Below are positions 1,701 through 8,658 of a DNA stretch of 64,000 bases, one piece after another. The DNA is from Acidobacteriota bacterium (GTDB lineage: Bacteria; Acidobacteriota; Terriglobia; Terriglobales; Acidobacteriaceae). The notes below the pieces were generated by a model. It was not told the origin of the DNA, searched no databases, and was given only the letters and a program-made list of their open reading frames with translations. Positions within the stretch are counted from its first letter, which is position 1, and the number at the start of each line of letters is the position of its first letter. Location: NCBI GenBank assembly GCA_021790995.1, contig JAJYFA010000003.1, positions 1 through 64,000 of the forward strand, read 5' to 3'. The position numbers and the translations under genes are program-made.

Positions 1701-1914
1701 CAGAGGCCAGCCTTCCCATGGAGACGATTGCGGCGCTTCCCAGCTCAGAATAGCGCATGGCAGAGACCGCCATGGTGGCTGACTCCGGCAAATTTCCTCT
1801 TCAGCATCTGCAAGGCAATGAAAATGCATTCTGTTTTACGCGATTGTGCCTGTTCTTCACGGGAAGCAAGGCGCAGACGGCATCGGATTTCGCTGTATCC
1901 TGAAAATAGCGCTC

Positions 1915-4038
1915 ATGGTTCCCCTCGGCGGCAATCGCGGTGAAAAACTCTCCACGTTCAAGCTGGCGGTGGTGCAGTACGGCATTTTGTTCATGATGCT
2001 GGGGCTGGCCGCCGGTTTGTGGCGGTTGCAGGTGCTTGACGTGGATAACTACCGGCAGCTCGCCCAGGAGAATCGTATCCGCAAGGAGCCGATTCTGGCC
2101 CCGCGCGGCAAGCTCTTCGACCGCGACAACCGGCTCGTTGTGGACAACTATCCATCGGTCACCTGCTTCCTGGTGCGCGAGCAGAGCCGGCATGTGGATG
2201 CCGATCTGCCGCTGATTGCCAAGGGCCTGGATCTCGATTTCGAACAGTTGCGCGCAACACTCTATCGCTACCGCCATGAACCTGGTTATCAGCCCATCCC
2301 CATCAAACAGGATGTCACCGCCGACGAGCAGGCGTTTATCGCGGCTCATCGCAATGAGCTGCCCGAGCTGGAGACCATCGACGAAGAGCGGCGGCTCTAC
2401 CCGCGCGACGGTTTTGCCTCGCACCTGATCGGCTACGTGGGCGAGGTAAGTGAGGAGGATCTGAATAATCCCCGCTTTGCCTATTACCAGCCGGGCGATG
2501 TGGTGGGCAAGGCCGGCGTGGAAGAGACCTACGACGAGCTGCTGCGCGGGCAGGACGGCAGCCGCGAGGTGGTTGTGGACAGCCACGGACGCGAGGCGGG
2601 CTTTCTGGGCATCGAGCACGCCATTCCGGGGCAGGATCTGCGGCTGACCATCGACAACGACCTGCAGCAGGCTGCCGAGCTGGCCCTGGGCGATCGCGAG
2701 GGAGCAATCGTGGCGATGGACCCGCGCAACGGCGAGATTCTGGCCATGGTCTCGCACCCCAGCTTCGACCCCAACGATTTTGCGGTGAAGATCAACCGCA
2801 CGGAGTGGAACCGGCTGGTCACCGACCCTGAACATCCGCTGATGAACAAGGCCATTCAGGCGCAGCTTGCGCCGGGATCGACCTTCAAGATTCTCATGGC
2901 GGTTGCCGGGCTTCAGGAAGGCATCGCACAGAACATGCACATCGTATGCAGCGGCGGCTGGGGCCCCTACGGCTACTACCACCACTGCGACGAGAAGCAC
3001 GGCGCGGTGGATATTCACAACGCCATTCCTTACTCCTGCGACACGTTCTTTTACATGCTGGGCGACAAGCTGGGCATCGATCGCATTGCGAAATACGCCA
3101 AGGAATTCGGATACGGACAGAAGACGGGAATCGACCTGCCCGGCGAACAGCCTGGACTGATGCCTTCGCAGCAGTGGGTGATCCGCAACTTCCACCACCG
3201 CTGGTACCCCGACGAGACGCTGGACGTCTCGATTGGGCAGGGAGCGGTCGAGGCCACACCGCTCCAACTGGCGCGCATCATCGGCGGCATCGCCTCGGAC
3301 GGGCATCTGGTGCGGCCGCATGTGGTCTTCCCCGACCAGCTTCCCGAGGATTTCCGCAAGTCGCTGCTTGACAGCTTTCCCGGATCGGGCGACGCGTATG
3401 TGCCCATCGATCCCGATACCTGGCAGACCGTTACTGACGGAATGGCCGATGTGACCGAGCCCGGTTTGTATCATACCGCCGGATCGGCGCATCTTGAGGG
3501 CATCGACTTTGCCGGCAAAACCGGAACTGCGCAGCAGATGAGCCACGCGGCGCTGGAAAAGACCAATAAGGGCCGCAGCACCAATCCCAACGTCTGGTTC
3601 GTTGGCGTAACGCCGCGCCGCAATCCAGAGCTGGTGGTGGTGGTTCTGTGGCAGCATGGCGAGTTCAGCTACTACGCTGCGCGCATCGCCGCCAAGGTGG
3701 TCACGGCCTATGTGGACAAGAAGCGCCGCGAGGCGGGCAATCTGCCGCCGCAGAAAGCTGCCGCTCCGGTCGAGGTGGGCGCGATCTGGTCGGCGCCGCC
3801 CGTGCCGGACGCAAAAAGCGCCGAGGCTGGCCAGGGCCAGATTCAGGGCGGGCATTTCTTCGTCGAGAACGGACAGATGATGGCAGCGAAAAAAGCCCCC
3901 GCACAAGCCAGTTACCAGCCGGCGAATCGGCTGGCGCGCTTGCCCGGAGTTCATCCTTCTAGCCGTCCGGACGAGATCTCGGCCGCGCCGCCCGAACGCA
4001 GACCCCGGCTGAAGTCCCAACCGAGGAAGGACCCGTAG
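1915..4038 (+). CDS. mrdA: Penicillin-binding protein 2 (elongasome transpeptidase)
   Basis: N-terminal TM, PBP dimerisation region, SxxK (PGSTFK), SxN (SCDTF region), KTGTAQQ; followed by rodA. Confidence 0.92.
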   Translation: MVPLGGNRGEKLSTFKLAVVQYGILFMMLGLAAGLWRLQVLDVDNYRQLAQENRIRKEPILAPRGKLFDRDNRLVVDNYPSVTCFLVREQSRHVDADLPLIAKGLDLDFEQLRATLYRYRHEPGYQPIPIKQDVTADEQAFIAAHRNELPELETIDEERRLYPRDGFASHLIGYVGEVSEEDLNNPRFAYYQPGDVVGKAGVEETYDELLRGQDGSREVVVDSHGREAGFLGIEHAIPGQDLRLTIDNDLQQAAELALGDREGAIVAMDPRNGEILAMVSHPSFDPNDFAVKINRTEWNRLVTDPEHPLMNKAIQAQLAPGSTFKILMAVAGLQEGIAQNMHIVCSGGWGPYGYYHHCDEKHGAVDIHNAIPYSCDTFFYMLGDKLGIDRIAKYAKEFGYGQKTGIDLPGEQPGLMPSQQWVIRNFHHRWYPDETLDVSIGQGAVEATPLQLARIIGGIASDGHLVRPHVVFPDQLPEDFRKSLLDSFPGSGDAYVPIDPDTWQTVTDGMADVTEPGLYHTAGSAHLEGIDFAGKTGTAQQMSHAALEKTNKGRSTNPNVWFVGVTPRRNPELVVVVLWQHGEFSYYAARIAAKVVTAYVDKKRREAGNLPPQKAAAPVEVGAIWSAPPVPDAKSAEAGQGQIQGGHFFVENGQMMAAKKAPAQASYQPANRLARLPGVHPSSRPDEISAAPPERRPRLKSQPRKDP

Positions 4039-4042
4039 CGTC

Positions 4043-5149
4043 ATGCCACTTCGCCGTTTCTTGAGCTTTCGCGACTTCGACTGGTGGCTGCTGCTGCTGG
4101 TGCTGATGCTCTGTACGGTTTCGGTGGTAGAAGTGCATTCAGCCACGCTGCACACCCGGTTTTCGAGCTTTGGTACACGGCAAATCTTCTGGGTCGCGGC
4201 TGGCGTGGTCGGCATGTTTGCCTTCGCCAAGATCGACTATCATCGTGTGATCGACTGGGCCCCGTGGGCCTATGGAGCCGGTCTTCTGGCGCTGGTTGCG
4301 GTGCTGTCGCCACTGGGCCACAAAGCCCTGGGCGGACGCCGCTGGATCAGGCTCGGTCCCGTGCTGGTGCAGCCCTCCGAGTACGTCAAGCTGGTGCTGG
4401 TGCTAATGGTGGCGCGCTATTTTGCCAATCTCGGCGGGCGCAACGTGACGTGGAAGGAGATCTTCAAGGCTTTTGCCCTGGTCGGTCTGCCCATGCTGCT
4501 GGTCTTGAAGCAGCCCGATCTCGGGACGACCCTTACCTACATGCCGATTCTGGTGGCCGGCCTGTTTCTGGGCGGGCTCAACCTGCGTCAGGGACTGATT
4601 CTACTTCTCTGCGGTGCTGTGCTCGCCGGAGGAGTGTGGTCAAGTGGAAGGTTTTTGAAACCCTACCAAAAGGCTCGCCTGACCAGCTTCGTCAATCCCC
4701 AGAACGACCCCCGCGGCGCCGGCTACCAGGTGCTGCAATCGGAGATTGCCGTGGGGTCCGGTGGGATATGGGGCAAAGGATCGGAGAAGGGCACCCAGAC
4801 GCAGGGATACTTCCTGCCCATTCCCTATACGGACTTCATCTTTGCCGCCCTGAGCGAGGAACATGGCTTTATCGGCGCGATTTTTGTGCTGCTGCTATAC
4901 TTCCTAATATTGATGCGTTTGATTCAGAACGCGCAAACAGCCTCCGACCTGCCCGGTTCTCTCATTATCATGGGGATTGTGGCTGTGTTGACCTTCCAGA
5001 TCGCGGTCAACGTTGGCATGGTCATAGGGTTGATGCCCGTCACCGGAATCCCTTTACCTTTATTGAGTTACGGCGGATCTTCGGTGTTGTTTACGTTCCT
5101 GGCGCTGGGCGTGGCGATGAATGTCCGCATGCGCCGGTTCGTCAACTGA
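4043..5149 (+). CDS. rodA: Rod shape-determining protein RodA (SEDS family)
   Basis: Multi-TM; GGRRWIRLGPVLVQPSEYVKL, KQPDLGTTLTY, SEEHGFIGA, GGSSVLFTFLALGVAMNV. Confidence 0.93.
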   Translation: MPLRRFLSFRDFDWWLLLLVLMLCTVSVVEVHSATLHTRFSSFGTRQIFWVAAGVVGMFAFAKIDYHRVIDWAPWAYGAGLLALVAVLSPLGHKALGGRRWIRLGPVLVQPSEYVKLVLVLMVARYFANLGGRNVTWKEIFKAFALVGLPMLLVLKQPDLGTTLTYMPILVAGLFLGGLNLRQGLILLLCGAVLAGGVWSSGRFLKPYQKARLTSFVNPQNDPRGAGYQVLQSEIAVGSGGIWGKGSEKGTQTQGYFLPIPYTDFIFAALSEEHGFIGAIFVLLLYFLILMRLIQNAQTASDLPGSLIIMGIVAVLTFQIAVNVGMVIGLMPVTGIPLPLLSYGGSSVLFTFLALGVAMNVRMRRFVN

Positions 5150-5712: not shown

Positions 5713-8658
5713 ATGGCAAAGGAAATTTGTATCTCCAGCACGCCGCATGAAACGCGGCTTGCAATTCTGGAAGACGATCAACTCGCGGAAATCTACTACG
5801 AGCGCGAAAACGAGTACACCCTGGCGGGTTCCATTTACAACGGGCGCGTGACGCGGGTATTGCCGGGCATGCAGTCGGCGTTTGTCGATCTTGGCCTTGA
5901 GCGCGATGCGTTCCTCTACGTCACCGACTTCATGGAGCTCGAAGACCAGGAAGAGACCGACGAGCTTGAGAAGGCTGCTGCCACTGGCCACGCGCCGCGC
6001 GAGGTGCGTCACCCGCATGGCGTTCCTGAAAGCAGCGGCCGCGAGGGCTCGCGGCAGGCAGAACGGGCTCAGGGCGAGCGCGGCGGGCGACGTCAGGAAT
6101 TCCGCCATGAACGTGGCACGCCGGAAGAAATCACCACAGAAGCGGTTGCTTCGGAACCCGCAACGATTCCCGCGCCGGCTGAGGCCGGGCAGAAGCAGGA
6201 AGCACAGGGCGGACGCCGCTGGCGTGGACGCCGCCGTCGCCGCGGGCGCGGCCAGGGCGTGGCTCCGGAGGCGGTTGCCGAGGAGGAAACAGGCTTCGCT
6301 GAGCCGGCCGAAACCGTTGAGATCAAGCAGGAAGCCCACCGAGAGCAGGAAATCGCGCCCGAGCCTTATGAGGCGCCGGCAAAGCAGTCTTACAAGGCTG
6401 CTGCGGCTTTTGTGCTGCCAGGTGAATCACTTTCGAAGTACGGCGGCACGCCGTCGCCCGAGACGCAGAATGCGGCTGCGGAGACCGCGGCGCCGACGCG
6501 TCCCTTCTCTACCTCAAAGCCCTCCACGCTGATTGAAGCGCCGATCACATGGGACGGAAGCGGCCTGTTGCCCGGCGAGTCGCTCTCGCGGCATCGCGAG
6601 AGGCTGGCTGAATCCGCGGTTGAGACCGAAGCGCAAAGCGAAGCCTCCACTGCGCCTGAGACGGAGCAGACGGTTGACGAAGAGTTCGAGGAGTATGCGT
6701 CCTCGCCTGAAGAAGCATTGCCAGTGATGGAAGCACCGAAGCAGGCGGACTTCGAGTTCGAAGAAGAGACCGCCGAAGCGGGCGCGATCGGGGAGTTTTC
6801 GCAGACAAGCGAAGTCGAACTCGAAACGGACGAAGACGAAATCGCGGTCGAAGACGAGTTTGAGGAAACAACGGAGTCGGCTCCAACGGAAACCGAAGCT
6901 GTAGCCGAGTCCCCTGCCACCACGCACCAATCGCCGGGGGAAGCCGAGCCGGAAAAGAACGCACAAAACGCCTCTGCCTCGCATCGCGTCGATCCCGCGT
7001 CACCCACTGGCTTCCGGATCTTTGGCTTTGGCAAGAAAAAGAAGGCCGAGGAAGAGGAGGCCGCAAAGCCTGCTGCCGCTCCGGCTTCAACCTATGCGCC
7101 GGGCGTGGGACTTGTGGAAGAGGAAGTCATCGAGGGCGAGGAGATCGATGGCGCGCACCACATGCGTCGTCACAAGCCCGAGGCGCACGACCTGGACGAC
7201 TACGAAGAGGAGACGCTGCCCACGCATATGCGCAACGGCGATTTTGGCGAGATGCTGCAGGAAGCGCACCTCGATCATCGCATCCAGCGCAACTTTGACG
7301 AGCCGAACGGCGAGGAAGAAGAGACGGCCGAGGAAGAGGAGACCGCACCAAGCGCGCGGCCTTCGCGCGGCCGTGATCGCCGCGATCGCGGGCAGCGCGG
7401 GCGCGGACAGCAGCGCCGCGGCCCCTCGCGCCGCTCGGCGCAGACCTCCAATCTGCCCATCATCTCCGACCTCTTGAAGTCTGGCCAGGAGATTCTGGTG
7501 CAGATCGCCAAGGAGCCCATCGCCAAGAAGGGCGCGCGCATCACCAGCCACATCGCCCTGCCGGGCCGCTTCCTGGTCTTCATGCCCACGGTGAGCCATG
7601 TGGGCGTGAGCCGCAAGATCGCCTCCGACGAGGAGCGCCATCGCCTCAAGCGCATTTTGCTGCATGAGCGCGGCGAGGCTTCCGGCGGATTCATCGTGCG
7701 CACCGCGGCCGATGGCGCGTCGGAGGATGAACTCCGCGCCGACCTGCGCTTCCTGTTGAATCTCTGGAACGACATCAAGCAGCGTTCCGAGTCGTCAAAG
7801 TCACCCGCGCTGATTTATCACGATCTCTCGCTGATCGAGCGCATCCTGCGCGACCAGGTGAGCGACAACTTCTCAAATATCTGGGTCGATTCCGAGGCCG
7901 ACTACGAGCGCATCGTGCGCTTCCTCAACCGCTTCTCGCCCTCGCTGGTGCGGCGCGTCAAGCTCTACACCAAGGAGACGCCGCTTTTCGAACACTTCGG
8001 TATCGAGGACGAGATCTCGAAGGCCCTGCGCTCGAAGGTCTGGCTCAAGTCTGGCGGTTCGATCGTCATCAATCAGACCGAGGCGCTGGTCGCTATTGAC
8101 ATCAACACGGGCAAGTATGTCGGCAAGAGCGCGCGGCTTGAGGATACGATCCTGAAGACCAACCTCGATGCCGTGCCGGAGATCGTGCGCCAGATTCGCC
8201 TGCGCGACCTGGGCGGCATTATCGTGATCGACTTCATCGACATGGACGAGCGCAAGAACCGCTACAAGGTCATGGCGGCGCTCGAAGAGGCCCTGAAGAG
8301 CGACCGTGCTCCAACTAAGGTGTTGCAGTTCAACGACTTTGGGCTGGTCGCGATTACGCGCAAGCGCGTCAAGCAGTCGCTGGAGCGCACTTTAAGCGTG
8401 CCCTGCCCGACCTGTCAAGCGACCGGCATGGTCAAGAGTTCAACCACCGTTTGCAATGAGATTTACATCGAGTTGCGCAAGATGCGCAAGCACTTCGAGA
8501 ATCCTGATGTGATGCTGCGCGTGCATCCGGAAACGGTGAAGGTGCTCAAGAGCAATAACGCCCGCTGGCTGAACGAGTTTGAGGATCTGATTGGGCGCAA
8601 TCTGCTGCTCAAGAGCGATCCCACCCTCCATCCCGAGCAGTTCGATATTCAGGGATAG
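5713..8658 (+). CDS. Ribonuclease E/G with a large insertion in the S1 domain
   Basis: N-term SGSIYNGRVTRVLPGMQSAFVDLGLERDAFLYV; C-term catalytic AIDINTGKYVG, GGIIVIDFIDMD and Zn-link CPTCQATG; the two S1 halves are separated by ~500 aa of acidic and Arg-rich sequence. Confidence 0.93.
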   Translation: MAKEICISSTPHETRLAILEDDQLAEIYYERENEYTLAGSIYNGRVTRVLPGMQSAFVDLGLERDAFLYVTDFMELEDQEETDELEKAAATGHAPREVRHPHGVPESSGREGSRQAERAQGERGGRRQEFRHERGTPEEITTEAVASEPATIPAPAEAGQKQEAQGGRRWRGRRRRRGRGQGVAPEAVAEEETGFAEPAETVEIKQEAHREQEIAPEPYEAPAKQSYKAAAAFVLPGESLSKYGGTPSPETQNAAAETAAPTRPFSTSKPSTLIEAPITWDGSGLLPGESLSRHRERLAESAVETEAQSEASTAPETEQTVDEEFEEYASSPEEALPVMEAPKQADFEFEEETAEAGAIGEFSQTSEVELETDEDEIAVEDEFEETTESAPTETEAVAESPATTHQSPGEAEPEKNAQNASASHRVDPASPTGFRIFGFGKKKKAEEEEAAKPAAAPASTYAPGVGLVEEEVIEGEEIDGAHHMRRHKPEAHDLDDYEEETLPTHMRNGDFGEMLQEAHLDHRIQRNFDEPNGEEEETAEEEETAPSARPSRGRDRRDRGQRGRGQQRRGPSRRSAQTSNLPIISDLLKSGQEILVQIAKEPIAKKGARITSHIALPGRFLVFMPTVSHVGVSRKIASDEERHRLKRILLHERGEASGGFIVRTAADGASEDELRADLRFLLNLWNDIKQRSESSKSPALIYHDLSLIERILRDQVSDNFSNIWVDSEADYERIVRFLNRFSPSLVRRVKLYTKETPLFEHFGIEDEISKALRSKVWLKSGGSIVINQTEALVAIDINTGKYVGKSARLEDTILKTNLDAVPEIVRQIRLRDLGGIIVIDFIDMDERKNRYKVMAALEEALKSDRAPTKVLQFNDFGLVAITRKRVKQSLERTLSVPCPTCQATGMVKSSTTVCNEIYIELRKMRKHFENPDVMLRVHPETVKVLKSNNARWLNEFEDLIGRNLLLKSDPTLHPEQFDIQG

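Follow-up and report, generated by a model that had tools for sequence, protein, structure and literature searches.

A 508-residue disordered insert in the S1 domain of an acidobacterial RNase G, a candidate internal scaffold for RNA decay

The closest described counterpart of the locus reported here is the S1 insert of Caulobacter crescentus RNase E (PDB 4OXP), a charged and disordered segment beside the RNA site. A helix with acidic side chains fills that site, and a gating role has been proposed (PMC4245959). On plant chloroplast RNase E, PMC4245959 cites work in which deleting the insert from the Arabidopsis enzyme lowers activity. RNase E tails are a model for bacterial RNA-decay condensates; in Pseudomonas, the arginine-rich segment AR1 binds RhlB and RNA and supports foci (PMC11964227). 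A 2011 survey gave the acidobacterial RNase E/G a length of 511 aa and predicted no degradosome (PMC3071783); the open frames here reach about 950-1300 aa.

We analyzed a 64,000-nucleotide stretch of DNA from an Acidobacteriota bacterium of the family Acidobacteriaceae, class Terriglobia (contig JAJYFA010000003.1, positions 1 to 64,000; the window). It carries an RNase E/G family gene, rng, whose S1 domain is split by a very long insert.

The rng gene and its S1 insert

The rng open reading frame (5713-8658, + strand) is intact and encodes 981 aa with no internal stops. Its product matches the Pfam RNase_E_G domain at residues 616-886 (E = 1.2e-103) and scores 483.5 against TIGR00757 (cut-off 326), which places it in the RNase E/G family. 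Against the NCBIfam equivalog PRK11712 it reaches 494.2 bits, below the cut-off of 594, and the insert breaks this match in two. The features of the enzyme are as follows.

5713..8658, + strand: rng, RNase E/G family ribonuclease (RNase G clade) with a giant S1 insert, 981 aa
5818..5937, + strand: S1 domain, first half (aa 36-75), with F57 and F67 of the uracil pocket kept
5938..7461, + strand: disordered insert in the S1 surface loop, 508 aa (aa 76-583)
7462..7548, + strand: S1 domain, second half (aa 584-612), with KGAR loop 606-609 equivalent to E. coli KGAA 112-115
7558..8370, + strand: RNase_E_G domain (aa 616-886), comprising the 5' sensor (R663, T664) and the DNase I part (D796, D840)
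8404..8415, + strand: CPTC zinc-link motif (aa 898-901; C898/C901)

These residues were assigned by alignment to 2bx2/2vrt, with the uracil-pocket residues of the S1 domain taken from PMC6538622. The catalytic, 5'-sensor, uracil-pocket and zinc-link residues are invariant or nearly so among relatives, and because all of these positions are kept, the enzyme looks functional as judged from its sequence. F57 and F67 are parted from the KGAR loop by the insert. The product lacks a C-terminal tail, with 2 aa beyond the profile end.

The limits of the insert were set by profile boundaries (S1 N-terminal part, aa 1-75; C-terminal part from aa 584), and the flanks correspond to the first and second half of the N-terminal region of the enzyme, S1 included. 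An earlier note on this DNA had placed a disordered, acidic and arginine-rich insertion of about 500 aa at 5941-7440, in an enzyme without the usual terminal scaffold, and had put the equivalent gap in E. coli RNase G at about 20 residues. We measured an insert of 508 aa whose span contains the one proposed, found termini without a tail, and counted 18 gap residues for E. coli RNase G and 16 for E. coli RNase E.

The insert is rich in glutamate (18.9%), alanine (13.6%) and arginine (8.5%) and only 14% hydrophobic, with 114 acidic residues (D+E) against 58 basic ones (K+R). Its charges are strongly segregated (z = 7.8 against 300 shuffles, none of which scored as high), alternating in the pattern -+-+-+-+, whereas the catalytic part has no patches (z = -0.9). 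For E. coli and three alphaproteobacteria, the charge-patch z values of the RNase E tail were 5-12, so that in its sequence the patterning of the insert resembles that of condensate-forming RNase E tails.

Disorder, which the earlier note had proposed to check by prediction, is what AF2 points to. Confidence was very low across the insert, as expected of disorder, save for islands at conserved motifs: two LPGES segments and a helix at aa 511-527, where it was low to moderate. S1 stayed unfolded in a first AF2 run, probably owing to an insert-dominated alignment. In a second run, with short RNase G proteins added, the catalytic core was confident and S1 still open (mean pLDDT about 40 for aa 590-610). 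Since AF2 did not close S1, closure of the fold is argued from sequence conservation. The significant matches in a fold search were RNase E catalytic domains and 4OXP; the insert alone matched nothing in Pfam or the PDB, neither an intein nor any other domain. The following segments stand out within it.

6214..6252, + strand: Arg block 1, RRWRGRRRRRGRG (aa 168-180)
6409..6441, + strand: LPGES motif copy 1, FVLPGESLSKY (aa 233-243)
6565..6594, + strand: LPGES motif copy 2, LLPGESLSRH (aa 285-294), overlapping predicted helix 291-308
6613..6912, + strand: acidic tract, net charge about -35 (aa 301-400)
7117..7143, + strand: conserved acidic motif EEEVIEGEE (aa 469-477)
7237..7284, + strand: predicted helix GDFGEMLQEAHLDHRI, the GEMLQEA helix (aa 509-524)
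7366..7434, + strand: Arg block 2, RGRDRRDRGQRGRGQQRRGPSRR (aa 552-574)

Both Arg blocks had been quoted in the earlier note and were located at these positions. Its description of the insert as low complexity is only partly apt, because strictly conserved, non-repetitive motifs are also present. Among 62 Terriglobia, L235, P236, G237, E238 and Y243 of the first LPGES copy are invariant, and R171, G172, R173, R174, R176 and R177 of Arg block 1 are each at least 90% conserved.

Occurrence in Terriglobia and assignment to RNase G

Insert length and position were compared across acidobacterial proteins, a check that the earlier note had suggested. Every Terriglobia locus with both S1 halves readable (about 98) carries an insert, of 334-524 aa on the Bryobacterales side and 428-866 aa in Terriglobales. 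Isolates and complete genomes are among these loci, one of them Terriglobus roseus DSM 18391 (L121), and the proteins have 0-2 aa after the catalytic part and no C-terminal tail.

Motif occurrence was taken from direct counts in place of profile searches, since profiles of the single motifs, run against other acidobacterial inserts, yielded no match that stood clearly above the reversed controls. The motif LPGE[ST][LI]xK[Y] occurs in one to three copies per Terriglobia insert, two of them here. LPGE[ST][LI/R] is present in 97 of 98 Terriglobia inserts, the single exception being the variant LPGEF, and the LPGE core in 98 of 98, with about 0 in shuffles. None of 19 inserts from related acidobacterial families contains LPGE[ST][LI]xK[Y]; those inserts hold other motifs. 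At the DNA level, a degenerate LPGES pattern has 2 matches in the window's genome, both in the insert (control, 0). Across 26 genomes of the family (25 genera), each has at least one match, for a total of 40 against 7 with the reversed control, some of the 40 being chance matches outside the motif. Comparison of LPGES with known partner-binding motifs gave no match. The GEMLQEA helix motif was found in 46 of 81 Terriglobales and, in a related family group, in 4 of the 8 inserts.

Other repeats were seen alongside these. In the related family group (L059, L069, L071 and L077 inserts), a repeated FER[IV]xD motif occurs in 7 of 8 inserts, together with a GEMLKDA-type helix that resembles the GEMLQEA helix of the window. 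Another group, with short inserts (L055, L061, L064, L066, L072), has repeated ILP[EDA] motifs, possibly degenerate LPGES.

A tree of 115 RNase E/G proteins, built by a quick method with the insert left out and with E. coli RNase G as a long branch, splits into 28 E-clade and 87 G-clade rows at a starred branch with support 100. On the E side are the RNase E proteins of E. coli and of alphaproteobacteria, along with the acidobacterial copies that bear a tail. The G side holds E. coli RNase G, the acidobacterial copies that are short and every acidobacterial protein with an S1 insert; here the 46 S1-insert rows form one starred clade. Gene order marks the same orthologue.

4043..5149, + strand: rodA (mrdB), upstream neighbor of rng, whose adjacency marks the RNase G orthologue

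Of 90 Terriglobia loci, 87 have rodA next to rng, as do many other loci of the G clade, whereas no E-clade locus does. On this sequence evidence, rng is an RNase G orthologue, separate from RNase E; its product is not RNase E proper, because the tail is missing and it lies outside the E clade. Further upstream in the window, minus-strand ORFs at 76-1829, by eye a candidate MlaE/MlaF-type ABC transporter, precede PBP2 (1846-4038) and rodA.

The earlier note had suggested that the scaffold moved from the termini into the RNA-binding domain; the analysis did not show such a move. Most G-clade relatives have bare termini. RNase E with its tail is another paralogue, which other acidobacterial families possess and this genome lacks, so the S1 loop expanded independently. 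In two-copy acidobacterial families, most of the sampled loci pair a tail-bearing RNase E (tail 87-323 aa) with a short RNase G; each of 78 sampled genomes from S1-insert families has one RNase E/G copy. Examples of two-copy loci are L175, L176, L183-L185, L188, L189 and L192 with their partners, in which RNase G often lies by rodA. In L058, L181 and L191, RNase G has a long extension at its N-terminus (about 290-480 aa, counted from the first Met), a third place for an extension in acidobacterial RNase G.

RNA-decay set, proposed role and alternatives

The window's genome (94% complete) has RNase J, a PNPase split over contigs and a single RNase E/G gene. No RNase Y was found in it, nor was there a match among the sampled members of its family in a survey of 247 phylum genomes. 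Across families, the median insert measures 362 aa where RNase Y is missing and 35 aa where it is present (Mann-Whitney p = 0.0007, shared ancestry not removed), and all 7 families with a median above 320 aa lack RNase Y. Within insert-bearing families the association has p = 0.026, again with shared ancestry not removed. Because the tree shows only about five gains or losses of RNase Y, leaving too few informative pairs for a paired test, the association may reflect shared ancestry, and inserts of 117-311 aa in genomes with RNase Y are counter-cases. We therefore regard it as a lead, not proof. In the same survey, 33 of the 247 genomes gave no RNase E/G match; several of these have RNase Y, including members of families f6 and f27.

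We favor, with moderate confidence, the reading that the expanded S1 loop is an internal degradosome or condensate scaffold on the cell's seemingly sole RNase E/G/Y-type endonuclease, where it probably does the organizing job of the RNase E tail. A surface loop of 16-18 aa in E. coli has grown here into a disordered segment of about 500 aa, in which the Arg blocks may hold RNA, the charge patches may favor condensation, and LPGES and the helix motifs may dock an RNA-decay partner such as PNPase, which is present, or a helicase. The insert evolved in lineages without a tail-bearing RNase E paralogue and is longest in families without RNase Y, as though the main mRNA-decay role had passed to RNase G.

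This reading presupposes that the insert is part of the mature protein. An assembly artefact, a hidden intron or an overlapping gene would mean that it is not, and long ORFs do run across it in other frames; however, the same in-frame insert recurs in the isolates and complete genomes, no intein match was found, and in most pairs synonymous divergence in the insert does not drop relative to the catalytic part, which speaks against an overlapping gene. We judge such an origin extremely improbable: the insert is confirmed as genuine. In close pairs, dN/dS is 0.08-0.28 for the insert and 0.01-0.11 for the catalytic part, with insert dN roughly five- to fourteen-fold higher. Since dN/dS is low and synonymous divergence undiminished in most pairs, the insert appears to be translated and selected; its evolution is in frame, with purifying selection acting on it. 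Its fast divergence (identity is, for example, 50-58% against 91-95% in the catalytic part) and many indels would suit mostly unconstrained padding, a loop that tolerates disordered, low-complexity growth and in which few residues matter. Yet the LPGE core is invariant over about 98 inserts, the Arg and EEET positions are conserved, and both the dN/dS values, well below 1, and a charge patterning far beyond that of shuffles argue against padding, which we find quite improbable.

A better contender, though still an unlikely one, is that the insert serves chiefly to cover and regulate the S1 face that binds RNA, as a gate or autoinhibitor, its acidic tracts mimicking RNA and LPGES or the helix docking back on the enzyme. 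The shorter Caulobacter insert, in the same loop, places an acidic helix in the RNA site (PMC4245959); the tracts at aa 301-400 are strongly acidic, and AF2 confidence is locally raised at the motifs. That confidence stays low to moderate, however, and the insert is far longer than a gate needs, varies between 334 and 866 aa, and has the Arg blocks and charge alternation typical of scaffolds. Emerging next to the RNA-binding face of S1, the scaffold may also gate substrate entry; a gating role at the RNA site is compatible with the scaffold role, and the two may coexist. A more far-reaching version of the scaffold reading is tentative, and we lean slightly against it: that Terriglobia RNase G is the main mRNA-decay endonuclease in place of RNase E and RNase Y, that the entire partner-binding and condensing scaffold lies within S1 as a third place for a degradosome scaffold, and that LPGES is a new docking motif.

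An independently evolved scaffold in the RNA-binding domain of another paralogue would allow a clean test of whether such scaffolds require charge pattern, motifs or position, and the LPGES motif offers a concrete bait for partners in a soil phylum that is abundant and little studied.

Comparison with described systems

We searched the open literature and found no earlier account of the size of the insert, its RNase G setting, its independent origin or the LPGES motif; subscription papers, including RNase E homologue classifications, lay mostly outside the search.

Alphaproteobacterial RNase E inserts occupy the same S1 loop as that of rng, and both are charged and disordered. The known alphaproteobacterial inserts are about 50-150 aa long (69, 140 and 171 aa in those measured), compared with 508 aa here, and they occur in RNase E with a C-terminal tail, whereas the acidobacterial enzymes belong to the RNase G clade and are tail-less. 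Because the former lie in the E clade and have C-terminal tails, the acidobacterial insert is, by its sequence placement, of independent origin. The plant chloroplast RNase E insert, likened here from the literature alone, is likewise charged and disordered and in the same domain but shorter. E. coli RNase G belongs to the same clade as rng, is near rod-shape genes and is also tail-less; unlike rng, it has a loop of 18 aa and no scaffold.

The C-terminal RNase E scaffolds of E. coli, Caulobacter and Pseudomonas share with the insert disorder, alternating charge patches, Arg-rich blocks and short conserved motifs in a fast-changing background (PMC11964227). The two Arg blocks resemble Pseudomonas AR1 in composition, and LPGES is not among the scaffold motifs compared here. 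The RNase E scaffold stands at the C-terminus of a different paralogue, while the insert stands inside the S1 domain of RNase G. As far as the searched open papers show, S1 inserts were known beforehand, and what appears new is how large this one is, that it sits in an RNase G, that it arose independently and that it carries LPGES.
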